21,614 nt of DNA, taken from a virus. The stretch is taken from positions 1 through 21,614 of IMG/VR virus record IMGVR_UViG_3300024273_001186; one strand, written 5' to 3'. This document shows, one piece after another, positions 706 to 14,258 of this stretch. A program made the position numbers and the translations under genes. Each line of letters opens with the position of its first letter. Positions within the stretch are counted from its first letter, which is position 1. The notes beneath the pieces are model-generated. The model was not told where the DNA came from. It did not search any database and saw nothing but the letters and a program-made list of their open reading frames with translations.

Positions 706-2080
706 GCAAGATTTCGATCCGTCTGGTTGCGATATTGAAGAAGCAATTCTTAGATCTTACGATGGATCTAAGACTGCTGATATTACTGCTAGCATAGTTG
801 GTTTTGAAATAAGCCAATCAATGGATAACGTGAGCTATAACGGAACTATTACACTTTTAGATACTGTTGGACTTTTTGAAAATTTTCCTCTTAGATCTGA
901 AGAAACTATTCAATTAAAAATAGTTGGTTACGATTTAAATACAGTTATAAATTTGAATGTTAACACGTATAAAATTACTGATATGGTTCCTTCTGAAAGT
1001 ACTAACGGTGTTTTGTTTACATTACATTTCGTGTCTGCTGTTACTTTTAATGCAAGCAAAAGAAGAATTTCTAAATTCTTTAAATCGTCGATTGGTGGTA
1101 TAGCTAAGGAAATATTTGATACATATTTTGGAAGACTCGATAGAGTTGACTATTTAGATATAGATGATAAGCGTAAAACATTGCCGTTTGCAACTGGTCG
1201 TCATCCTATTATTTCAGAACCTGACAGAAATTTCTTTATTCAACCAACTGCTGGAATGTCCGGTCTTATTATTCCAAGACTTACTCCAAGCGAAAGTATG
1301 TTTTTTCTTGCAAGCAGAGCGTACGCTGGTTCAGAAACACCATCACAATCTTTTAGATTTTTCGAAACTCTCGAAAATTTCTATTTTTGTACTGACGAAT
1401 ATTTCATTAAAGATATTAGTGAAAACGAAGTAATTAATTTGTTCTACGCTCCCGCATCTTCAGTAGATCCAAGAAATCCAGAAGATCAAATTAACAGAAT
1501 TGAAAGTCTCCAAATTATTGCAAATGGTACAGACACTGCGTCTGACATATATTCTGGCGCCTATAAGAATAGAGTTATAGAGATTGATTTTATTAGAAAA
1601 AATGTAAACAAACTAGATTTTGATTATTCTAAAGATGCTAGATATATTGACATGTCTGGAAATCCTAGAAATCTTAATGATAACCCGCATACAGAAAGTT
1701 TTCGTAACGATACTTTTACTGAAGAAAACGCTAGACAGTTTATGATTTTTAGAGACTACACTAGTAACGGAGATATTCCAACTTCTTTATCTACCGATAG
1801 ACACTTTTCGGAAATAGCAGCAAATAGAGTTTCTTATTATCACCACATGAATAACACTATTCTTGCTGTTGGTTTAAAAGGTAGAATAGATTTAAGACCC
1901 GGAAAAATAGTAAATTTAAATATTAAAAGTTTAAATGCTACTAACGGAGAAGAAATAAACGATATGTTAGCTGGCAGGTATTTAATTAAAAACGTAAATC
2001 ATATTTGCGAAAACGGAATATTAAATACAAGTATGCAATTAGTGAAATTTGACTGGAGTAGAGGTACTGCAAATGTTTGA
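698..2080 (+). CDS. 27: baseplate hub protein, gp27-like
   Basis: This 460-residue protein fits the gp27 / P2 gpD class of hub proteins, which form a trimeric ring linking the tail tube to the spike. The N-terminal part has the usual tube-fold pattern: an ITASIVGFEISQSMDNVSYN strand pair, a TITLLDTVGLFENFPL turn, then an ETIQLKIVGYDL strand (about residues 29-79). The C-terminal part has an R-PGKIVNLNIKS strand and an AGRYLIKNVNHI strand (about 397-435), as expected of the second hub domain. T4 gp27 is about 391 residues, so this one is somewhat longer. It lies directly before the gp5-like gene and overlaps it by eight bases, matching the gp27-gp5 partnership. The assignment rests on pattern and context; direct sequence identity to T4 gp27 would probably be low. 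Confidence 0.75.
   Translation: MSEQDFDPSGCDIEEAILRSYDGSKTADITASIVGFEISQSMDNVSYNGTITLLDTVGLFENFPLRSEETIQLKIVGYDLNTVINLNVNTYKITDMVPSESTNGVLFTLHFVSAVTFNASKRRISKFFKSSIGGIAKEIFDTYFGRLDRVDYLDIDDKRKTLPFATGRHPIISEPDRNFFIQPTAGMSGLIIPRLTPSESMFFLASRAYAGSETPSQSFRFFETLENFYFCTDEYFIKDISENEVINLFYAPASSVDPRNPEDQINRIESLQIIANGTDTASDIYSGAYKNRVIEIDFIRKNVNKLDFDYSKDARYIDMSGNPRNLNDNPHTESFRNDTFTEENARQFMIFRDYTSNGDIPTSLSTDRHFSEIAANRVSYYHHMNNTILAVGLKGRIDLRPGKIVNLNIKSLNATNGEEINDMLAGRYLIKNVNHICENGILNTSMQLVKFDWSRGTANV
2061..2064 (+). promoter_or_regulatory. ribosome-binding site that fixes the gp5 start
   Basis: GAGG lies eight bases before the ATG at 2073. An upstream TTG at 2049 is in the same frame, but the gp5-like OB domain begins at the ATG (MFEHGVGIKN), and the eight extra residues (MTGVEVLQ if TTG is read as Met) have no counterpart in the family. 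The ATG at 2073 is therefore the likely start. Confidence 0.6.
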
Positions 2081-4124
2081 ACATGGTGTAGGAATTAAAA
2101 ATCCGTTATTCTTTGTAGGTGTTGTAGAGAATAACAACGATCCTCGTAAAGAACAACGCGTTCAAGTGCGTGCGTTTGGTATACATGGAACAAATACAGA
2201 AATTTTAACAGAAAATCTTCCTTGGGCTATATGCATAAAAGGCGATTACGATCCTAACGGAAAACCTGGTTGGGGTTTACCTTCGGTCGACTCTTGGGTA
2301 TTTGGCTTTTTCTTAGATGGTAGAGATGCGCAACAACCAATGATACTCGGTTTAATACCAACCCAGAATTTAACAACCCAGACGCCATCTGAGCGTGGGT
2401 GGGGTCGTATTCCAGCTGGACCTTATGGCGAAAGACTTGCTCTTGGAAATGAACCAGAAAATTATGGGCAACCAGCAAATTCACGTTTAGCTCGTGGAGA
2501 AGACATACATGAAACTGCTGTATTTTCTCAGGAAATGGGAAGAATATCAAATATCAAAGTTGGTGGTTCTGAAACAACTTGGGCAGAACCTGTTCCGGCA
2601 TATAACGCAGAATACCCACACAATAGAGTTATTCAGACATCGTGTCATACAATCGAAATAGACGATTCACCCGGCGCTGAAAGAATTATGATTATGCACG
2701 GATCTGGTTCCTATGTTCAAATCGACAATAGAGGAACTACTACTCATAAATCTGTCTCAGACAAATTTGAAATCAATGATAGAAAACAACACGTATATGT
2801 AGGCGGAATGAGCACTGTTACAATTAACGGTAATAGTTATGTATACGTCAAAGGTAATAAGATTGAAGAAATTGAAGGCGATTTGCAAACACTCGTACAC
2901 GGCAATCATATGCTTTCTGTTGGTGGGCAATCTACTATTAACGCTGGTGAGCAAGTGCAGGTGCGCGGTGCTGATGTTAAATTAGAAGCTAATGTTGGTA
3001 CTTTCTCTTTTAAATCTGGTAAAGAAATACAAATTCAATCTGGAGAAGGTATTTACTTTAAGAGTGAAAAAGTTTATATTGAAGGCACTGATGAGCTACA
3101 CATGAAAGGAAATTCTACTTTCTTAAAAGGAACTTCTAGCATTGATATTTTCGGTGAAGCTATAAACATGCAATCAACCGGAGATTTTAATTTAAAGAGT
3201 GGCCTATTATACGTAGGATCTAATGGATTACTGCATATTAGTGGAACTACAGTTAATATTGATGATAATGTTAGTATGGCTAATAGCGAAGCAGTAGCTC
3301 CAGGAAGTGCTTTTGAAGCAGAAGGATCTATTGACGCTGCTTCAGTACAAGCACCAGAGCCTGTATCAAAATCTACTTCTATTAATCCTCCACAGGACGA
3401 AGGTTCTATGGGTTCATCGGGTTATTCTTCAAAAGACCATTCTGGGGAAGGTGGTGGTCAAGGCGGTGGTGGCACATATAACGGAACCGGCGCAATTCCA
3501 ACTACACCTATTTCTTCTGCAACACAAAACGCAATTACACCTCTTCTTGATTTTATTGGAAGCAAAGAAGCTCCTCGCGGATATGACCAAGTATCAGGTC
3601 TTATAAGTCAATCAGATTATCCTTATAAACCTATTACGCAATTGACTATTGGAGAACTTCTTGATTGGCAAGAATCGATAGATCATCTTCAATTATCAGA
3701 AGCTTCGGGTCGCTATCAGATAATAGAAGATACTTTAAGAGGATACGATAACGGCCAGCGTGGCTCTCCTAAGTCTCAGCCGAGTTATTATACCCCGTTA
3801 TATCAGTCGGCCGGATTAAGTCTGAGTGATTTGTTTAGTCCGAAAAATCAGGATAAGATGGCAACTGCTTTATTAAGAGGGGCCGGACTTGACAGATACT
3901 TGGCAGGGACTATGTCTGTACAAGCTTTTGCAAATGCCGTTGCCGGAGTTTGGGCATCTATGCCTATTGTAGATGGTAAAGATGCTGGGCAAAGTGTATA
4001 CGAAGGTGATATCGCAGGAAATAGTGCAAAAAATACTTCAATTCAAGCATACTTATTGGTATTAGATCAAATTAAAACTAGAAATGACACAGTTATATCG
4101 CAACCGCAAATTGGACCACAATAA
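2073..4124 (+). CDS. 5: baseplate hub/tail spike with C-terminal lytic domain, gp5-like
   Basis: This 683-residue protein is the central spike. Residues about 1-100 form an OB-fold domain with the family motif WAICIKGDYDPNG and the phrase QQPMILGLIP. Residues about 190-400 are short alternating V/I-x-V repeats (HVYVGG, SYVYVKGNKIEEIEGD, ADVKLEAN) as in the trimeric beta-helix needle. A Gly/Ser-rich linker follows (about 443-470). Residues about 489-670 resemble the lambda endolysin (R) fold: candidate catalytic Glu499 in GSKEAPRGYD, then SEASGRYQII (542-551) and VWASMP (626-631), matching lambda R AWSEGTD, GAGRYQLL and IWASLP. In T4 gp5 the lysozyme is of a different family (T4-lysozyme type) and sits between OB and helix; here it is after the helix. 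The domain should cut peptidoglycan glycan strands during entry. It overlaps the hub gene by eight bases and the next gene by one (TAATG). Confidence 0.88.
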   Translation: MFEHGVGIKNPLFFVGVVENNNDPRKEQRVQVRAFGIHGTNTEILTENLPWAICIKGDYDPNGKPGWGLPSVDSWVFGFFLDGRDAQQPMILGLIPTQNLTTQTPSERGWGRIPAGPYGERLALGNEPENYGQPANSRLARGEDIHETAVFSQEMGRISNIKVGGSETTWAEPVPAYNAEYPHNRVIQTSCHTIEIDDSPGAERIMIMHGSGSYVQIDNRGTTTHKSVSDKFEINDRKQHVYVGGMSTVTINGNSYVYVKGNKIEEIEGDLQTLVHGNHMLSVGGQSTINAGEQVQVRGADVKLEANVGTFSFKSGKEIQIQSGEGIYFKSEKVYIEGTDELHMKGNSTFLKGTSSIDIFGEAINMQSTGDFNLKSGLLYVGSNGLLHISGTTVNIDDNVSMANSEAVAPGSAFEAEGSIDAASVQAPEPVSKSTSINPPQDEGSMGSSGYSSKDHSGEGGGQGGGGTYNGTGAIPTTPISSATQNAITPLLDFIGSKEAPRGYDQVSGLISQSDYPYKPITQLTIGELLDWQESIDHLQLSEASGRYQIIEDTLRGYDNGQRGSPKSQPSYYTPLYQSAGLSLSDLFSPKNQDKMATALLRGAGLDRYLAGTMSVQAFANAVAGVWASMPIVDGKDAGQSVYEGDIAGNSAKNTSIQAYLLVLDQIKTRNDTVISQPQIGPQ

Positions 4125-5701
4125 TGAGCATACCACATTTAGATCCTTGTTTAAATCCTACTCGTTATGAAACGACGTTTACACCTTTGCCAAACACAAA
4201 TTTTAATGGTGAATACACTTTAAACGTAATTAGTTCTTTTGAAGAAGACTTTAGAAAAACAATAGTAGCAGATACAATTACAAATCCGCTTTCGTTAGCA
4301 GTTAATAAGTATGGTGACACTTTTTATGATGCGGCAAATAGTTTAAATTCCGATTTCTTAAAAAGACCTTACGTATTAAGTAAAATTCCGGATTACGACT
4401 TGTTAAGTGAAAGACTTAAAAATGGTAGAACAATTACAACCTTTGAGTTTGCGCAATTTATAAGTGATTACTCTTATACTCCTGGCGCAGTTGCAGACTC
4501 TTATAATGCAGATCCAAATAAATTCTTAAATGAATTAGATGGTTTTTATAGAGGTGACTTTGTAAATAATATTATGGGAGGTTTTTGTTCTTTATTCGGA
4601 AATGTATTTGGTGCTATTCAAGGTTTCTTTGATATTGTCGGATCAATACAAGGTTTAATCGGAGATGCTCTAAGTTTCATTGCAAAGATTAAAAACATTA
4701 AAAATCCTCTTCTTGCTATTTTTAACGCTGTTAAAGTTAAAGCTCTTATTGAAGCAATTAAAGAAAAAATATCAAAAGTAATTGAAGGCGTGATTAATAA
4801 CGTTAAAAGCGCAATTGAAAATTTTAATCCTGCAAATATCATGAGCCAAGTTCAAAGCTTTATAACAAACAATATCGGAAAAAGAATTGCAGAATTAAAA
4901 GAAAATATTGGCAAATTTTTTACTGAAGAAAATACTAAATATATTAAAGACAAAATTACAGGTCTCATTGATTATTCAACAAGTCTTTTTGAAAATCCGT
5001 CTTTAGAAGAAATTACGTTTATGATTGCGCGCTTTTGCGGATTTGCCGCGGGTGTACAAGGAGTACTTCAGGGACTAAAAGATCCTTTAGATGATTTCTC
5101 AAATAGATATGAGGAAGTATTTAATACTATATCAAATGCATCTAATAGAGTATTAGGCGAATCAATAAGAGCTGGTGCTATAAGAATTGCGCCAGAAAGA
5201 AGAGAAGAAGTAATAAATACACTTAGAGACGAGTGGCAACAAGCTGGTAGTTTAGTCCCAATTGACGGAAATGAAAGAAATGGCGTACCAGAGTGGGATG
5301 ATTTATTAAATGGAAAAGATCCAGATTTGTCTATTGTTGGTCAATGGGTTACACACCCGCTTTGTGGCCGTGAGGGTTGGACTATGATGGATTTAGATTT
5401 TAGAGTTAAAATTATGAGACTACATAAGGCTGCAAAAGCTGCTGAGATTTATAGTGGTAAATTGATATTAAATAGTGGTTATAGAAGTCAACAATATAAT
5501 GCATTAGTTGGCGGTGAACTAACATCTAAACATATTGATGGTATGGCTGCAGATTTAACATGGAATGGCTTTTCTCCTTATAGCCAAAATGTATTACGTT
5601 TTGCTAACCTTGCAAGAGGTCTTGGAATTACTGGTCGTGGTTTTTATAAAACTTTTATTCATACTGCTATAAGCAATGAAAATTTCGATAGAAGAGGATA
5701 A
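4124..5701 (+). CDS. structural protein with C-terminal M15 zinc peptidase domain
   Basis: This 525-residue protein has no recognised N-terminal family. Residues about 1-145 are soluble. About 146-335 are long amphipathic to hydrophobic helices rich in Gly, Ile, Phe and Lys (GFCSLFGNVFGAIQGFF; AIKEKISKVIEGVINNV). Residues about 405-525 match the M15_3 type of D-Ala-D-Ala peptidases: LNSGYRSQQYNALVGG (449-464), then SKHIDGMAADL with candidate zinc ligands His470 and Asp477, and FIHTAIS with third ligand His513. Such enzymes cut peptide stems of peptidoglycan. The gene starts within the gp5 stop (TAATG) and ends three bases before gp25, so it belongs to the hub/wedge operon and is probably a virion protein. 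The role of the helical middle is unknown: a tape-measure-like, hub-plug or membrane-interacting part are all possible. Confidence 0.82.
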   Translation: MSIPHLDPCLNPTRYETTFTPLPNTNFNGEYTLNVISSFEEDFRKTIVADTITNPLSLAVNKYGDTFYDAANSLNSDFLKRPYVLSKIPDYDLLSERLKNGRTITTFEFAQFISDYSYTPGAVADSYNADPNKFLNELDGFYRGDFVNNIMGGFCSLFGNVFGAIQGFFDIVGSIQGLIGDALSFIAKIKNIKNPLLAIFNAVKVKALIEAIKEKISKVIEGVINNVKSAIENFNPANIMSQVQSFITNNIGKRIAELKENIGKFFTEENTKYIKDKITGLIDYSTSLFENPSLEEITFMIARFCGFAAGVQGVLQGLKDPLDDFSNRYEEVFNTISNASNRVLGESIRAGAIRIAPERREEVINTLRDEWQQAGSLVPIDGNERNGVPEWDDLLNGKDPDLSIVGQWVTHPLCGREGWTMMDLDFRVKIMRLHKAAKAAEIYSGKLILNSGYRSQQYNALVGGELTSKHIDGMAADLTWNGFSPYSQNVLRFANLARGLGITGRGFYKTFIHTAISNENFDRRG

Positions 5702-6122: not shown

Positions 6123-7919
6123 ATGGCTAAACTTAATATTTCAGAATTAGATTTTGAGACAAACAAAGCACAGTTTAAAGACTACCTGAGGTCTCAAACT
6201 CAATTCAAAGATTATAACTTTGAAGGCTCTAACATGAGTGTGCTATTGGATGTGTTTGCATATAACACTTTCCAAAACAACTTTTATACAAACATGGCCA
6301 TTAACGAAATGTTCCTTGATTCTGCCGTATTGAGAAACTCTGTTATATCTCATGCTAAAGAACTCAATTATCTTCCACGCTCTAGAAAATCTGCTCGAGC
6401 CGTAGTAAGAGTTACAATTAGAGATACTGCTATTGTTGGGCAAACAGTTACAATACCAGCTTATTCTGGTTTTACTACAAACTATTTGGGTGTAAACTAC
6501 GAATTCGTAAATGATAAAACATACATTGCTAGAAAAACAGCGCCTGGAGTGTTTATAGCTGATAACGTAGAAATCTACGAAGGTCAAATGCTAGCAAGCT
6601 TTGAAAGAGAAGGTTATTTTGTTGACGACGACGGCATTTTAAGAGTTATCCTTACAAACGAAAATGCTGACATTGATTCTATTGTTGTATTCGTTGACGC
6701 AGAAGCAACAGAAGATGAAAATACTTTTATTCGTAAAAATGATATTTTCGGAGTAGGCGCTACTGATAAAGTTTTTTATGTTGAACCATATTACGATGGT
6801 AGATATACTGTGTATTTTGGTAACAATACTTTCGGTTTACAACCTCTAGAATACGAAGATATTCGCGTAAGATACAGAATTACAAGCGGTGAAGAAGCGA
6901 ATGGCGCTTTTTCTTTTGCCTTAGGTGCAGAATTAGCTTCTTCTACTATAGTTGTCGAAACGGTTCAAAGTGCCGCAGGTGGTGCTGAAAGAGAAAGTTT
7001 AGAAAGCATTCGTTATTTTGCTCCTAAATCTTTGCAAATCCAAGAAAGAGCAATTACTACAAGCGATTACGAAATTCTCTTAAAACAGGCTTTCCCTGAA
7101 ATTCGCGCAGTATCTGCTTACGGTGGAGAAGATTTAATTCCACCGCAATTTGGCAAGGTTGCTGTTTCAGTTTATCTTGGCGAAGGAAGAGAAGGTTTAT
7201 CTGGAACGCTTTCAAGCGCATATATCGAATACCTAAGACAAAGAAGCCCTCTTGCTATTGAACCTGTATTCGTAAACTCCGAATTTATTTACGCGTGTTT
7301 AAATATCGAAGTTTCATTTAATCCTAAAATTACAAGAAAATCTTCAGGTCAAATCGAGACTTTAGTTAGAAATGCAATCGCAAATTACACAACAATAAAC
7401 CTAGATAACTTTAATACTACATTAAGACTATCTAAACTATCTGCTGATATCGATAATGTAGATATTTCAATAAGAAGTAATACTCTTATAGCTAATCCAT
7501 ATATTGAATACTCACCACCACTTAATATTTCTTTAAGCCCGGCGTTTAAATTCTACGCTGCTTTGATTAAACCATATCCATTTAAAGATACAAATGGCTT
7601 TGATGATTACAAGCCATCGGTAAAAAGTAGCATATTTACATACAACGGTGTTTCAGTTTATATGCAAGATGACGGTTTAGGAAATATTCAAATTGTAACT
7701 TCTGATTTAACAAATCCGCAAATCGTTAAACCTATTGCAGGTGTTGTAGATTATACTACCGGAGAAATAAATTTAGTTGGCTTCATAACTAGTGGCTACA
7801 CTGGCTCTGGTATTAAAATTATGGTGACAACAAAGAAAGAAGATATTACTGCACCAAGTGGAAGAATTTTCTTTATTAACGATTCTGATGTAACAATTAA
7901 TCTAACAGAGACCGCATAA
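6123..7919 (+). CDS. 6: baseplate wedge subunit, gp6-like (baseplate J family)
   Basis: This 598-residue protein is the gp6 / baseplate_J wedge protein, which dimerises and links neighbouring wedges into the inner ring. The N-terminus (LDFETNKAQFKDYLRSQTQF, then DVFAYNTFQNNFYTNMAINE) is typical of T4-like gp6. The J-family core lies at about 285-355: AGGAERESLESIRYFAPKSL, then RAITTSDYEILLKQAFPEI. T4 gp6 is about 660 residues. It directly follows gp25 and overlaps the next gene by one base (TAATG), as expected for translationally coupled wedge proteins. The C-terminal ~120 residues are beta-rich and less conserved. Confidence 0.93.
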   Translation: MAKLNISELDFETNKAQFKDYLRSQTQFKDYNFEGSNMSVLLDVFAYNTFQNNFYTNMAINEMFLDSAVLRNSVISHAKELNYLPRSRKSARAVVRVTIRDTAIVGQTVTIPAYSGFTTNYLGVNYEFVNDKTYIARKTAPGVFIADNVEIYEGQMLASFEREGYFVDDDGILRVILTNENADIDSIVVFVDAEATEDENTFIRKNDIFGVGATDKVFYVEPYYDGRYTVYFGNNTFGLQPLEYEDIRVRYRITSGEEANGAFSFALGAELASSTIVVETVQSAAGGAERESLESIRYFAPKSLQIQERAITTSDYEILLKQAFPEIRAVSAYGGEDLIPPQFGKVAVSVYLGEGREGLSGTLSSAYIEYLRQRSPLAIEPVFVNSEFIYACLNIEVSFNPKITRKSSGQIETLVRNAIANYTTINLDNFNTTLRLSKLSADIDNVDISIRSNTLIANPYIEYSPPLNISLSPAFKFYAALIKPYPFKDTNGFDDYKPSVKSSIFTYNGVSVYMQDDGLGNIQIVTSDLTNPQIVKPIAGVVDYTTGEINLVGFITSGYTGSGIKIMVTTKKEDITAPSGRIFFINDSDVTINLTETA

Positions 7920-10216
7920 TGTCAGAAATAGAAAAGAATATAGCATTTAAAATTGCCCAGCAATTTCCAGCTTATTATAGAGAAAATGGCCCAGAACTAG
8001 TTAAGCTAGTTGAAGAATATTATAGATTCATGGAAACTGAGTCTAATCAAAGCGTATACAATGCAAGAAGAATGTTTGAATACCGAGATATTGCCACTAC
8101 TCTTTCTAGTATGATTATATTCTTTCAAAAGAAATATCTAGTAGATCTTCCGCTTTTAGATGATTCAACTGTAAGATTTATTATTAAAAATATTTTAGAT
8201 CTTTACAGAAGAAAAGGATCTGAAGCAGGAGTTGTACTGTTCTTTAGAATGTTTTATCAAGAAGATGTTGAAATAAGATATCCTGCAAAATATATTTTAA
8301 AGCCTTCTGATTCTTCTTGGCAAACCGGAACATATTTACAATTATTTCCAAACAACAATATATTTTATGCTAATGACGGAATTACATATTACACGTATAA
8401 AGACTTGATCAGTAGAGACATTTATGGATCTATTTCAAAAGCAAAAGCTATTGTAGATAAAATTAACTTTATCTTATTAAATAAAACACTTACGCCTATT
8501 ATCTATATTACTGCTGTAAAAGGTCAATTTATTAAATACGATGATATGATTTCTAGAATTGACGGAAGTGATATATCATTTGGAAAGTTAAATGGATCTG
8601 CTTCTAGTATAGAAATAGATCTTTTGTATGGCGGAACTACTGGAAATAAACCCGGAGATGTTTTCACCTTATTAAGTGAAAAAGCTGGTGTTGGCGGTGT
8701 AGCAGTTGTTACTGAAACTCAAGACGAATTTACTGGAACTGTAACATATGAAGTTACTGATGGCGGCTTTGGTTACACAATACCAAACACAAAACTTCTT
8801 GTTTCAAATCAGTCTGTTGTTTTAGATAACCCAGACTTTTCTTTTGTTCTTTTAGAAACTTTAAGAGATAGTGCTGGAAACGAAGGTATTGTTACAGGCC
8901 AAAATTCTAGCGCAGTTGGCGTAAGAATGAATGATGGAGAAGAATTTAATATTTCTAGACCCATTTCAACTATTGATAGAGATGTTAATGTTACATTTAC
9001 TCGATATATTGCAGGGCCAAATCCTACTGGGCAAATTTTTACTATTTCATCTAAAAATGGCTCATCACCCGGTCTTTTATTACCAGAAAATGGCAATGCA
9101 AATACCGACGTACAAGTTTCAACATTAACAAATATAGAAAATATATCTCTTATCACTGATGTTATTCAAGGTTATCTTGACGTAAGTATCAATGCTGCAA
9201 ATTATAATGATCCGCCTGCTACTCAGCCAATGTCTGGTGTTACAGATCCTGTTACTATTGCAACGGTTTTAGAAGACGCTTTTGACTTAACACCGTTTGA
9301 TATCGGCACGATTGTTTCGTTTAAAAATACTAGCCCTGGTTTAGATTATCAATCTGACGTATTTTCTTTAGCTAGAGATGACGTAATGACTGCCTTTGAA
9401 AGATTTAATCAGTATCTTCTTATTCAAGATTATAGCGCGTCGTTTTCTGTAGGTGATACGGTTACACAGCCAGACAGAAATGTTTCTGGTGTAATAGTTG
9501 GAATTGATAATGATAACAACTTTATTAACGTTAGACCTTATAATTATTACGGCTTTAAAAGTGGGTTTGATATAGTCCACAAAGGAAACGCGTATGGTGT
9601 TTTATCAGTAGAAAGAGATTACTCATCTGAAAAATTTGGCGAAAACGCTGATATAAAATCTACAACACAATTTTCTACTGGAAGAATTTCAGCAGCGATC
9701 ATATCTAACTCTGGCTTTGGATATGTAGATGGTGAAACAGTTTTCTTAGTAAATGAAGCTGGCGAAATACAAGCTAGAGCTATTTTAAGAGCAAATTCAC
9801 AAGGTATTACTGCTGGTTTCTGGGGAAGTTTAAATTCTCACATCAATGGTTACACTAAAACTCTTGCTGGTGACGGTGTTGATGTGTATTTCGATGGTAA
9901 AACTAGAATTCAGGATAGTGATTACTATCAAGAATATTCATATGAAATTAGATCTACTATTGATACTCTCCAGTACGAAGATACTTTAAAGAAAAACGTT
10001 CACTTAGCTGGTACTAAAATGTTTGGTGAATTTGTGTATTCTGCTAAAGAAGTAATTGGCGTAACAAACAAATTTTATAGAGCCATAAAAGAAGACAACA
10101 TTGTTGGCGGAGATCCAATTGTTGGGCCAAATCAAATAGCTACTCAGCAAACAGTTAGATCAGATAATAATATAAGAACTGTAGATGCAACAACATTTAC
10201 TGCCGACATAACTTAA
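7919..10216 (+). CDS. baseplate wedge protein, probable gp7 / P2 gpI-like
   Basis: This is a 765-residue protein. The first ~125 residues are helical (FPAYYRENGPELVKLVEEYY; YLVDLPLLDD) and end in LYRRKGSEAGVVLFFRMFYQ (about 98-117), followed by a short strand. That resembles the R-x-K-G-T-x-x-A helix of P2 gpI, the partner of J in (J)2-I wedge cores, whose T4 equivalent is gp7. The rest is beta-rich and carries repeated G-x-G-Y turns (DGGFGYTIPN near 280; NSGFGYVDGE near 598) between strands. T4 gp7 is about 1032 residues, so this form is shorter. Its place straight after gp6, overlapping by one base, supports the call. Direct identity to T4 gp7 is not visible by eye, so I leave the symbol blank. 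Confidence 0.68.
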   Translation: MSEIEKNIAFKIAQQFPAYYRENGPELVKLVEEYYRFMETESNQSVYNARRMFEYRDIATTLSSMIIFFQKKYLVDLPLLDDSTVRFIIKNILDLYRRKGSEAGVVLFFRMFYQEDVEIRYPAKYILKPSDSSWQTGTYLQLFPNNNIFYANDGITYYTYKDLISRDIYGSISKAKAIVDKINFILLNKTLTPIIYITAVKGQFIKYDDMISRIDGSDISFGKLNGSASSIEIDLLYGGTTGNKPGDVFTLLSEKAGVGGVAVVTETQDEFTGTVTYEVTDGGFGYTIPNTKLLVSNQSVVLDNPDFSFVLLETLRDSAGNEGIVTGQNSSAVGVRMNDGEEFNISRPISTIDRDVNVTFTRYIAGPNPTGQIFTISSKNGSSPGLLLPENGNANTDVQVSTLTNIENISLITDVIQGYLDVSINAANYNDPPATQPMSGVTDPVTIATVLEDAFDLTPFDIGTIVSFKNTSPGLDYQSDVFSLARDDVMTAFERFNQYLLIQDYSASFSVGDTVTQPDRNVSGVIVGIDNDNNFINVRPYNYYGFKSGFDIVHKGNAYGVLSVERDYSSEKFGENADIKSTTQFSTGRISAAIISNSGFGYVDGETVFLVNEAGEIQARAILRANSQGITAGFWGSLNSHINGYTKTLAGDGVDVYFDGKTRIQDSDYYQEYSYEIRSTIDTLQYEDTLKKNVHLAGTKMFGEFVYSAKEVIGVTNKFYRAIKEDNIVGGDPIVGPNQIATQQTVRSDNNIRTVDATTFTADIT

Positions 10217-10902
<686 letters not shown>

Positions 10903-10905
10903 TAA

Positions 10906-12567
10906 ATGCTTAGAGAGTGGATTGTTACTCTTCATAAAAGAGAAGACTTAGAAAGTTTCTATGAAGACATGGAAACTCCAGGCGGCAATTTGTTTATTCC
11001 AAATAGAGCTGTTGAAGTAGCTAATAAAAGACCAATTAGTCGTAACACTCACTACATGTTAACAAACGAGGAAGTTGAACTTTTAAGATCAGATGATAGA
11101 GTTTGGGGAATTGATTTAGTAGAACTTATTGAGTTAACTACAAGACCTCACTATACAATTACAAATGGTGGATTTGATAAAAGCACAACCGACGACGCTT
11201 CTGATATTAACTGGGGTTTACTAAGACATTCCGAAGAAACAAACAGAAATAATTGGGGTGCAAATGGTACATCTTTAGTAGTTGATGATTTATCTATTAC
11301 AGCTTCTGGAAAAAATGTTGACGTTGTTATCGTCGATGGTCATATAGATCCTAATCACCCAGAGTTTGCTACCAATTCAGACGGCACAGGTGGGACAAGA
11401 GTTCAGCAATTTAATTGGTTTTCTTTAACTAATACAGTAACAGGCGGGGCGAACGGAACGTACGTATACGCGCCTTACGTTGATGGCACCAATGCCGAAC
11501 GTACAGGCGACAATAATCATGGTTGCCACGTTGCTGGTACCGTTGCTGGAAACACTCAGGGCTGGGCTAGGGCCGCTAACATTTACAACATTAGTCCATA
11601 CAGTACTAATCCAAATACGCTCTCGAGCACCGCCATGTGGGACTACATACGACAATGGCACAACACTAAATCTGTTAATCCAGCAACCGGCAGACGCAAT
11701 CCAACAGTTACAAATAACAGTTATGGTTCTTCTATATTATCGAACTACACCGGCACCTATACTACGGGTGCCGTAACAAGAGTAAATTATCGTGGAGTTG
11801 ATTTTAATCCTGGCAGAGATTTAACTATTGCTGAATTGCAAGCTCGCGGGTTTTATGCTCCATCTTTAACTGCGTCAATTCCTAATTACTTTGCGTCCCG
11901 TGATGCTGATATGCAAGATGCTATTAATGATGGTATTATTATTGTTGCTTCAGCTGGTAACGATTATTGGAAAACAGTAAATAGTTCAGATCAAGACTAC
12001 GGTAACATTTATTATATGGTATATAACGGTACTAATTTTAATTGGTACTTAAATAGAGGAACTGGTTCTGGAGCTGGATACGCTCCGGTTATTAACGTTG
12101 GTGCAACTTCAAATGACATACTAGAAGACAAAGCTCCTTTTTCAAATTGCGGAAGCCAAGTAGATATTTTTGCAGCAGGGGAAGCAATTCAAAGCAGTAT
12201 ACACGCTGCAGTTGGTGATATTGCCGATCCAAGAAATACAAACTACAACTTTGATAAGTATCAAGGCACAAGCATGTCAAGCCCGCAAGTTGCAGGTGTT
12301 CTTGCTATATTAATTGAATCTTGGCCGAATATGACTCAAGCAGAAGCGCAATCATGGCTAATAAATAATGCATCTATAGATCAAATGCAAGACACTCAAA
12401 CTGATGATCCAATGGATACTAACAGTTTACAAGGCGCGCCAAATCTTTATCTAAGATGGATTAATCAAAGATCTATAATTGGCGAAGCTTTTCCACAAAG
12501 GAATTTTAAACCTAGACCAACTTCTGGAAGAGTTTATCCAAGACCGCGTATACGTAAGAGAGGCTGA
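10906..12567 (+). CDS. subtilisin-family (S8) serine protease with I9-like propeptide
   Basis: This 553-residue protein has a complete subtilase active site: Asp144 in VDVVIVDGHIDPNHPEF, His205 in NNHGCHVAGT, oxyanion Asn352 in IIIVASAGND and Ser456 in GTSMSSPQVAG. The first ~80 residues have the pattern of an inhibitor-I9 propeptide, starting EWIVTLHKREDLESF and ending VELLRSDDRVWGIDLVE, which normally folds and inhibits the protease until cleavage. There is no signal peptide or membrane segment, so export by the Sec route is unlikely. An insertion of about 60 residues (280-335) precedes the oxyanion region. The C-terminus is basic and proline-rich (RPTSGRVYPRPRIRKRG). It follows the small fibre gene by three bases and precedes the gp8 promoter. 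It may be packaged in the virion, process a structural protein, or act in the host; the sequence does not decide which. The stretch around the catalytic His is GC-richer than its surroundings. Confidence 0.92.
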   Translation: MLREWIVTLHKREDLESFYEDMETPGGNLFIPNRAVEVANKRPISRNTHYMLTNEEVELLRSDDRVWGIDLVELIELTTRPHYTITNGGFDKSTTDDASDINWGLLRHSEETNRNNWGANGTSLVVDDLSITASGKNVDVVIVDGHIDPNHPEFATNSDGTGGTRVQQFNWFSLTNTVTGGANGTYVYAPYVDGTNAERTGDNNHGCHVAGTVAGNTQGWARAANIYNISPYSTNPNTLSSTAMWDYIRQWHNTKSVNPATGRRNPTVTNNSYGSSILSNYTGTYTTGAVTRVNYRGVDFNPGRDLTIAELQARGFYAPSLTASIPNYFASRDADMQDAINDGIIIVASAGNDYWKTVNSSDQDYGNIYYMVYNGTNFNWYLNRGTGSGAGYAPVINVGATSNDILEDKAPFSNCGSQVDIFAAGEAIQSSIHAAVGDIADPRNTNYNFDKYQGTSMSSPQVAGVLAILIESWPNMTQAEAQSWLINNASIDQMQDTQTDDPMDTNSLQGAPNLYLRWINQRSIIGEAFPQRNFKPRPTSGRVYPRPRIRKRG

Positions 12568-12605: not shown

Positions 12606-14258
12606 ATGACAAACGTACTTACTACAAAATTAAAAAACGACACAACTAGAATGTTCTATCAGGACATTCAAGATAACAACTATTACGTGTTTGTTTCTTC
12701 TGTTTCTTCAGATCCATTAACTCGAATTAGTGCGGTTAATTCCCAGTATAGCAAAAATTTGTTTTTAGAAAAAACTCTTTTTGGCAAAAAAGTATTTGAT
12801 ACTGATACGAAATTTATGATCAAGTATTATCCTTGGCAAAAAGATCAATTATATGTTCAGTACGATGATAAAATTAATCTCGAAGATAAAAGATTTTATG
12901 CAATTGTAGGACCAACCAATAACAACTCTGGAGATTACAGAGTTTATAAATGTTTATCTAATAACAATGGTTCTGTATCTTCAATCCCGCCAAATTACAA
13001 CCCAGTTACAGAAAATCAAATTTATAGAGTTGCTGATGGTTATGTTTGGAAATACTTGTACGTACTTACAGTTACTGAATTTGAAGCTTACAACGCTATC
13101 GGATATATTCCTCTTGTAGGAGATTTCGAAATAGATCCTTCTGCTAATTCTAATAACACAGTTTATGGATCAGAAATTAGTGATATACTTGTAGAAAATT
13201 ATATTGATAATACCGGTTATCCGTATGTAGAAGTTGGAATTATCGCAGGTTCCCCGGGAAATGATTCAACACTACTTGTAAGATCAGATGAACTGAACGA
13301 AATTTCAAACTACTATTCTGGAATGATAATTTACATTTATAATAGTGCCGCTGGAAGATCATACGTATATGAAATAGATACGTATGAATGGGATGCCGCG
13401 GCTGATCGTGGTAGATTAAAAGTTATTGGCAACCCAAAAGCCGATGGGGTTGTAATTAATAGCACATTCCAAATTCTTCCAAGAATTAAAGTATCTGGCG
13501 ACGGCGCAGGTGCTGTAGCTGTTCCAAGAATAAACAATGGTGTAATAGAAACAATACTTCTTATTGAACAAGGAAGCGGCTATAATAATATTACAGCAGA
13601 AGTAATAGATCCAATTTATGATTTTAATCCAGAAGATGTAAACACTGTAGACGTAAGAGCAGTATTAAGACCAGTACTTTCTCCAGTTGGCGGGCACAAT
13701 TATAATCTCATTGATGAAATGCATTGCCGCCATATCTTGCTTTACGGTTATATTACAGAAACTGACAATAATCAAATTGGAGCTACAAACACGTATTCAG
13801 TTGTTGGCGTAGTTAAAAATCCAGAATTCTTATATGCAAACACCGATATAATTCCGAGTGCTAATACACCAGACGTTTTTGATAATAGAATATCAGTTGT
13901 TACAGATGATTACACAAAAGTTGTTGTAAACTCTTTAGTAGTACAACGAAACTTAAATAACGAAGTAACATTTTCTGCCAAAGTTCATGAGATAGACGGT
14001 GCTGCCAATACAATATATCTTTCAGAATATACAGGTCCGTATTTAAATATTGGAAATAATGATACATCTTTAGATCCAAATCAGTATTTAGTTAACAGTA
14101 CAGGCCAGCTAATAATAATAAATACCCCAGTGGCTAATAGTATAATTGAATCACAATATAATCAAAGAACTGGTACAGTGTACTTTATGGATGATCTTTT
14201 TCCACTTACCAGATCTACGACTTCAAGAGAAGAATATAAGTTGGTTTTAGAATTTTAA
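12606..14258 (+). CDS. 8: baseplate wedge subunit, gp8-like
   Basis: This 550-residue protein matches gp8 of T4-like phages, a dimeric wedge protein that binds gp7 and gp10. The N-terminal half has the gp8 hallmarks: NNYYVFVSSV (about 24-33), an FGKKVFDTDTKFMI block, DYRVYKCLSNN (about 110-120) and DGYVWKYLYVL (about 145-155), the last two matching T4 WLVYRCLD and DGYVWEYLF. T4 gp8 has 334 residues; this one carries extra beta-rich sequence, including a GSGYNNITAEV turn (about 323) like those in the gp7-like protein. It ends with a strand-rich tail (REEYKLVLEF). A late promoter lies directly upstream, and the next gene begins 14 bases after its stop. Confidence 0.88.
   Translation: MTNVLTTKLKNDTTRMFYQDIQDNNYYVFVSSVSSDPLTRISAVNSQYSKNLFLEKTLFGKKVFDTDTKFMIKYYPWQKDQLYVQYDDKINLEDKRFYAIVGPTNNNSGDYRVYKCLSNNNGSVSSIPPNYNPVTENQIYRVADGYVWKYLYVLTVTEFEAYNAIGYIPLVGDFEIDPSANSNNTVYGSEISDILVENYIDNTGYPYVEVGIIAGSPGNDSTLLVRSDELNEISNYYSGMIIYIYNSAAGRSYVYEIDTYEWDAAADRGRLKVIGNPKADGVVINSTFQILPRIKVSGDGAGAVAVPRINNGVIETILLIEQGSGYNNITAEVIDPIYDFNPEDVNTVDVRAVLRPVLSPVGGHNYNLIDEMHCRHILLYGYITETDNNQIGATNTYSVVGVVKNPEFLYANTDIIPSANTPDVFDNRISVVTDDYTKVVVNSLVVQRNLNNEVTFSAKVHEIDGAANTIYLSEYTGPYLNIGNNDTSLDPNQYLVNSTGQLIIINTPVANSIIESQYNQRTGTVYFMDDLFPLTRSTTSREEYKLVLEF

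Follow-up and report, generated by a model that had tools for sequence, protein, structure and literature searches.

Which role could a subtilisin-like protease play when its gene lies among the baseplate genes of a T4-like phage, directly behind a short tail fibre? The window, i.e. the whole stretch of DNA analysed here, is a complete 21.6-kb IMG/VR virus record, with genes in the order gp5-like, hub with M15 peptidase, gp25 (named by its size and its position next to gp6), gp6, gp7-like, short fibre, subtilase, gp8-like, a 1776-aa protein and an S74 fibre (Table 1). This order agrees with an earlier sequence-only reading, which had placed the protease inside a baseplate gene cluster and had suggested that it could be a virion cargo enzyme, a maturation protease for fibres or baseplate, or a weapon against host surface or defence proteins. 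The hub protein (4124-5701) ends in a peptidase M15 domain (E 3e-12) and would be a wall-cutting enzyme in its own right, and the gp5-like protein (2049-4124) carries an endolysin-like domain at its C-terminus (PHROG 90, residues 467-681), attached via a Gly/Ser-rich linker.

Table 1 Features of the fibre-protease locus and its flanks in the window.
Feature	Position	Strand	Evidence
gp7-like baseplate wedge protein, upstream flank	7919..10216	+	
Short fibre protein, 217 aa, 3 nt upstream of the protease	10249..10902	+	Fibre-like gene precedes the subtilase across loci
gp9/gp10-type N-terminal baseplate-anchor segment, fibre residues 1-37	10249..10359	+	T4_gp9_10_N, PHROG 677
Fibre C-terminal beta-sandwich (type A), proposed protease dock	10516..10902	+	Type A profile, pLDDT, cargo clustering
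Subtilisin-family (S8) zymogen protease, 553 aa	10906..12567	+	Pfam S8, PHROG 9158, AF2 model
I9-like propeptide, residues 1-79	10906..11142	+	babbab topology, pro-subtilisin E superposition, relatives' Pfam I9 matches
Linker, residues 80-98, expected place of autoprocessing (putative cleavage)	11143..11199	+	Low pLDDT, mature-chain start
Catalytic Asp144 codon	11335..11337	+	Invariant 42/42
Catalytic His205 codon	11518..11520	+	Invariant 42/42
Oxyanion-hole Asn352 codon	11959..11961	+	Invariant 42/42
Catalytic Ser456 codon	12271..12273	+	Invariant 42/42
Arg/Pro-rich C-terminal tail, residues 525-553, probably disordered	12478..12564	+	pLDDT <50
gp8-like baseplate wedge protein, downstream flank	12606..14258	+	PHROG 438, E 5e-45

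The subtilase and its propeptide

The protease ORF is intact from ATG to stop. Pfam Peptidase_S8 was matched at residues 135-497 (E 1e-28), and the profile of PHROG 9158 matched over the full length (residues 1-550, E 8.8e-114). In a phmmer alignment with aqualysin I, Asp144, His205 and Ser456 fell in canonical motifs, and the oxyanion Asn352 lies within SAGN. We confirmed that the subtilisin is complete: the four residues, already named in the sequence-only reading, were identical in 42 of 42 aligned subtilases (the window protein and 41 relatives, with identities down to ~25%), so that catalysis is under selection. The AF2 model, built from 26 sequences, reached a mean pLDDT of 77.9 and a pTM of 0.82, and its catalytic domain superposed on solved subtilases with Z scores of 27-31 over ~265 residues (rmsd mostly 2.3-3.0; VIA-align). 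Overall, the ORF is by its sequence an S8 subtilase with a D-H-S triad and an oxyanion Asn, for which proteolysis is predicted.

Similar to aqualysin I, Meiothermus keratinase (5wsl) and pro-subtilisin E (3whi), the window protease has the catalytic fold (Z about 31 for keratinase and aqualysin; VIA-align), the active-site residues and the I9 topology of the family. Unlike the aqualysin and keratinase subtilases, it has no signal peptide, shows insertions in the catalytic domain and an Arg/Pro-rich tail, and is encoded in a phage tail operon. The region of this tail is the site where C-terminal domains are fused in relatives (L017, L018 and ACG-2014h).

The first residues had been suspected to be an I9 inhibitory propeptide, and the structure prediction bore this out. 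Residues 1-79 of the AF2 model fold as b3-9, a12-23, b38-40, b47-52, a54-60 and b66-71, the babbab order of I9 propeptides. Unprocessed pro-subtilisin E (3whi_A) aligned with model residues 1-522 (330 residues, Z 27.7, rmsd 3.8; VIA-align), and because this is one single alignment starting from residue 1, propeptide and enzyme superpose jointly. Inhibitor_I9 (PF05922) was the most frequent family in a whole-Pfam scan of 33 isolated N-terminal segments, matching 9 of them with a best E of 0.0034; the window's own segment, scanned alone against Pfam, stayed below the threshold, and the propeptide profile found no match among PDB sequences. On the strength of the model, we assign the N-terminus to the I9-type propeptides, and the window protease is almost certainly a zymogen. 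Autoprocessing would be expected in the linker, where residues 80-89 had a pLDDT <50 and from which mature proteinase-K-like chains began to align (only from model residue 89-100 onward; VIA-align). The N-terminus (MLREWIVTLHKREDL...) contains no hydrophobic stretch of the signal-peptide type, and the reported absence of a signal peptide was thus upheld.

Baseplate locus, lineage and fibre partner

In order to avoid bias, contigs of the uncultured T4-like lineage to which the window belongs were fetched with gp6 as bait instead of the protease. Fibre and subtilase lay between gp7 and gp8 in 25 of 25 contigs spanning this interval, none being without them; these contigs include differing assemblies and records also present in the protease-fetched set, and do not represent 25 independent phages. 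The protease-fetched contigs of the lineage kept the same gene order. The search at the same locus in relatives, which the sequence-only reading had proposed as a check, was therefore positive and supports a true tail-module gene. It was considered that the locus might be an assembly artefact or a chimeric contig, for which we see a negligible probability: dozens of contigs, drawn from many metagenomes, repeat this gene order and match collinearly over every gene, and this conserved order refutes a break or chimera at the protease.

In the 31 contigs that contain the full gene set, identity to the window averaged 72% for gp6, 68% for the S8 protease, 61% for gp8, 59% for gp7 and 58% for the fibre. 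The protease was more conserved than gp7 in 28 of the 31, and likewise than gp8 (28/31), and thus evolves in the manner of a core protein. The closest matches of the window's gp6 and gp8 were the Sinorhizobium phages phiN3 and phiM12 and further T4-like phages of proteobacteria, not cyanophages, and no psbA was found across 26 virus records from relatives with the subtilase, which reach up to 221 kb. Contigs of the window lineage were also found binned in one Rhodobacteraceae and one Bacteroidetes MAG, which may be contamination; those in the Rhodobacteraceae MAG Water_Bin34 (L083-L085; FZLS01000008, 12, 13) differ in coverage and could be viral contamination or a hint of the host.

The fibre gene preceding the protease combines a baseplate-anchor segment with a separate C-terminal domain. 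Residues 3-37 matched Pfam T4_gp9_10_N (E 2e-5, 25.2 bits with a cut-off of 25), and the protein matched PHROG 677, a baseplate wedge/tail fibre connector (E 1.7e-12). Its C-domain was modelled at a pLDDT of about 95, and a fold search with this domain returned only generic jelly-roll matches (Z <8) and no specific structural relative. Wherever the upstream sequence was readable, a fibre-like gene was found directly 5' of the subtilase, with a spacing between a 4-nt overlap and a 4-nt gap in nearly all loci; the one exception was S-TIM54, in which the subtilase is fused into a 2140-aa virion protein. The length of the partner fibre varied widely.

Two types of fibre C-domain were distinguished. 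Type A, comprising the last ~128 fibre residues, was matched by its profile in all tested subtilase loci outside S-TIM54 and the P-SSM2/S-T4/S-SCSM1 group. In this group, the fibre ends in an unrelated domain (type B), and homology between the two types was not supported (hhalign probability <1). On the S8 tree, the type of C-domain needs a single change (support 98/93), so that the fibre C-domain type and the S8 clade are inherited together. Type A as a strictly subtilase-specific dock was rejected, since it also precedes non-protease tail genes in S-BM3, S-SCSM1, Sf-CH1b, ACG-2014i, S-H9-1 and PSS2; in S-CAM1, a type A end is followed by a more distant subtilase. Type A sequences cluster by their downstream cargo (3 changes compared to a shuffled mean of 5.8, with 0 of 500 shuffles as low), and the paired type A copies in ACG-2014i, as well as those in S-H9-1, separate by cargo. 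Such clustering does not itself prove contact and would fit a fibre end that holds the product of the next gene.

Cyanophages would thus have an exchangeable slot for fibre end and cargo, where type A is followed by the subtilase or by another tail protein. Tail proteins of 600-780 aa were seen after type A ends in L075:6383-8209, L076:6359-8614, L077:6391-8361, L078:6386-8683 and L079:5393-7723, and several of the non-subtilase proteins following type A fibres share an NGGNTGW motif at the N-terminus. An N-terminal segment serving as a docking domain common to all type A cargo was unsupported, as no profile matches were obtained.

Relatives, added domains and the link to the virion

A tblastn search yielded 41 phage records with the subtilase family, all of them cyanophages or marine single-cell viruses of the same family, and 38 of these covered at least 80% of the query. 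Compared to the ~458 cyanophage records with a gp6 match, the family is present in roughly 9% (duplicates included) and appears patchy among T4-like cyanophages. In S-H38 and S-CREM1 the subtilase occupies the same baseplate neighbourhood, in other cyanophages the fibre region. The sequence-only reading had stated that T4-like phages normally carry a prohead protease elsewhere and not a subtilase at such a place. Its first half held, as an S77 gp21-type prohead protease is encoded elsewhere in a 221-kb relative, and the subtilase as a substitute for it was rejected; its second half did not, because these cyanophage records show that the subtilase is not foreign to T4-like phages.

PHROG 9158 is annotated as 'unknown function', and no functional study of this subtilase family was found in the literature searched. 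The cyanophage members of PHROG 9158 / T4-GC 292 (S-WAM2 gp058, S-H38, S-CREM1_165, Sf-FR1_192, S-RSM4_039 and P-SSM2_297) share with the window protease near full-length homology including the propeptide, the same active site and a position directly behind a fibre-like gene. However, the window protease is only 25-46% identical to them, and its lineage is not a known cyanophage. In the window lineage, the fibre-protease pair is always found between gp7 and gp8; its distribution among cyanophages is patchy, and its place there is often a fibre region near metabolic genes.

Several relatives carry additional domains. Part of the window lineage (L038, L131, L143, L152, L162, L084 and others) has an insert of ~306 residues between the triad Asp and His, with conserved HVHNDMVWY and EHLxHTIH motifs that are possibly a metal site, and L046:8001-10358 has an insert of ~224 residues after the mature N-terminus, possibly a binding module; neither insert had a Pfam or PHROG match. 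Cupredoxin-like C-terminal domains are fused to the subtilase in some relatives, and LamG-type lectin domains in S-SCSM1. An esterase-like alpha/beta-hydrolase domain lies C-terminal to the subtilase in ACG-2014h (L064:7992-10916) and between propeptide and enzyme in S-TIM54 (L005:6402-12824), which has Ig domains too. The added lectin, Ig, cupredoxin-like and esterase-like domains would fit an exposed enzyme of the particle that acts on the envelope.

The S-SCSM1 homologue forms the first part of the 1411-aa PQC12_gp144 and is 27% identical to the window protease. The record notes PQC12_gp144 as 'baseplate wedge subunit (virion protein)' and names the preceding fibre-like gene 'virion protein'. 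For this phage, 45 virion proteins were reported by mass spectrometry, and the authors name a D-Ala-D-Ala carboxypeptidase and an endo-glucosaminidase as detected (PMC9602691). The same virion-protein label is found on S-SCSM1 gp158 (carboxypeptidase by name) and gp159 (noted 'lysozym' and taken as the second enzyme), while several other tail genes of the phage lack it. Since the label coincides with the enzymes named by the authors and is missing from these other genes, we read it as detection by mass spectrometry. It is probable that the window-type protease is carried on the virion, the support being the record label of one fused homologue in another phage, and of the uses suggested earlier, virion cargo gained support from this label.

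A possible role of the protease on the tail

We propose that the subtilisin is made as a zymogen in the infected cell, where the I9 propeptide would keep it inactive or aid its folding, and that it is built into the tail beside the short fibre of the preceding gene, to which it would probably be attached. The fibre would be anchored to the baseplate through its gp9/10-type N-terminus and would carry the protease on its C-terminal beta-sandwich. During adsorption, the mature, virion-borne enzyme would cleave proteins at the host surface and clear a path for the tail, analogous to tailspike depolymerases that cut surface polysaccharide. Tailspike depolymerases and gp38-type adhesins are tail-fibre-associated enzymes and tip proteins encoded downstream. 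The likeness is one of arrangement, an enzyme or adhesin whose gene immediately follows that of a fibre and which is displayed on the tail; there is no sequence relation, the window system would act by proteolysis from a zymogen, and we claim no membership in either group. We give this whole reading, a fibre-paired tail zymogen that cuts host-surface proteins at entry, an even chance of being correct. Its weakest step is the putative host-surface substrate. It counts against the reading that gp7 and gp8 are both less conserved than the protease, which in this respect is unlike fast-evolving proteins in contact with receptors. An extended version, which we consider doubtful, is that the virion keeps the propeptide until it meets the host. 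A rearrangement of the baseplate or host factors would then release the propeptide and trigger surface proteolysis, with the exchangeable fibre C-domain as a holder that in other phages serves unrelated tip proteins too.

An alternative explanation, which is possible although we lean against it, is that the enzyme is a maturation protease. During assembly, it would make one or a few cuts in the fibre next to it or in a different baseplate protein, and then remain on the particle or leave it. Its invariant place between gp7 and gp8 in the window lineage, its core-like conservation and the lack of a signal peptide would suit such a role, and coinheritance with the fibre C-domain type is also what an enzyme-substrate pair would show. 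However, with the family in only ~41 of ~458 gp6-matching T4-like cyanophage records, it is dispensable for T4-like baseplate assembly generally, and lectin, Ig and esterase-like fusions as well as the virion detection of the S-SCSM1 homologue (by label) are unexpected for a transient processing enzyme.

The lack of a signal peptide, which makes the protein cytoplasmic by default, would equally fit an intracellular protease directed against host or defence proteins that lies in a late tail operon by chance. We regard this as improbable given the fixed fibre pairing, the baseplate-operon location, the fusions to fibre and lectin parts and the virion label of the homologue. The adjacency to a fibre, as known for tip adhesins, and the other proteins filling the same downstream slot could also point to a structural use, in which the subtilase fold is kept solely as a tail-tip adhesin and activity is irrelevant; the four active-site residues invariant in 42 diverse sequences and the retained propeptide make this very improbable.

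The sequence family was already annotated, and the protease is neither a new fold nor a new kind. As far as the literature searched shows, the new elements are the I9 propeptide, the constant pairing with a fibre gene in this uncultured T4-like lineage, the joint inheritance with the fibre-end type, the link to the virion and the extra domains that relatives carry as insertions or fusions. Polysaccharide- and peptidoglycan-clearing virion enzymes are well known, and a virion protease acting on host-surface proteins was not described in the literature searched. Overall, the subtilase family occurs widely among T4-like phages of aquatic habitats, retains all catalytic residues and is tied to one fibre gene, and its homologues in the cultured cyanophages S-WAM2, S-H38, S-CREM1 and P-SSM2 make both the question of a tail-borne zymogen and its cleavage target directly testable.
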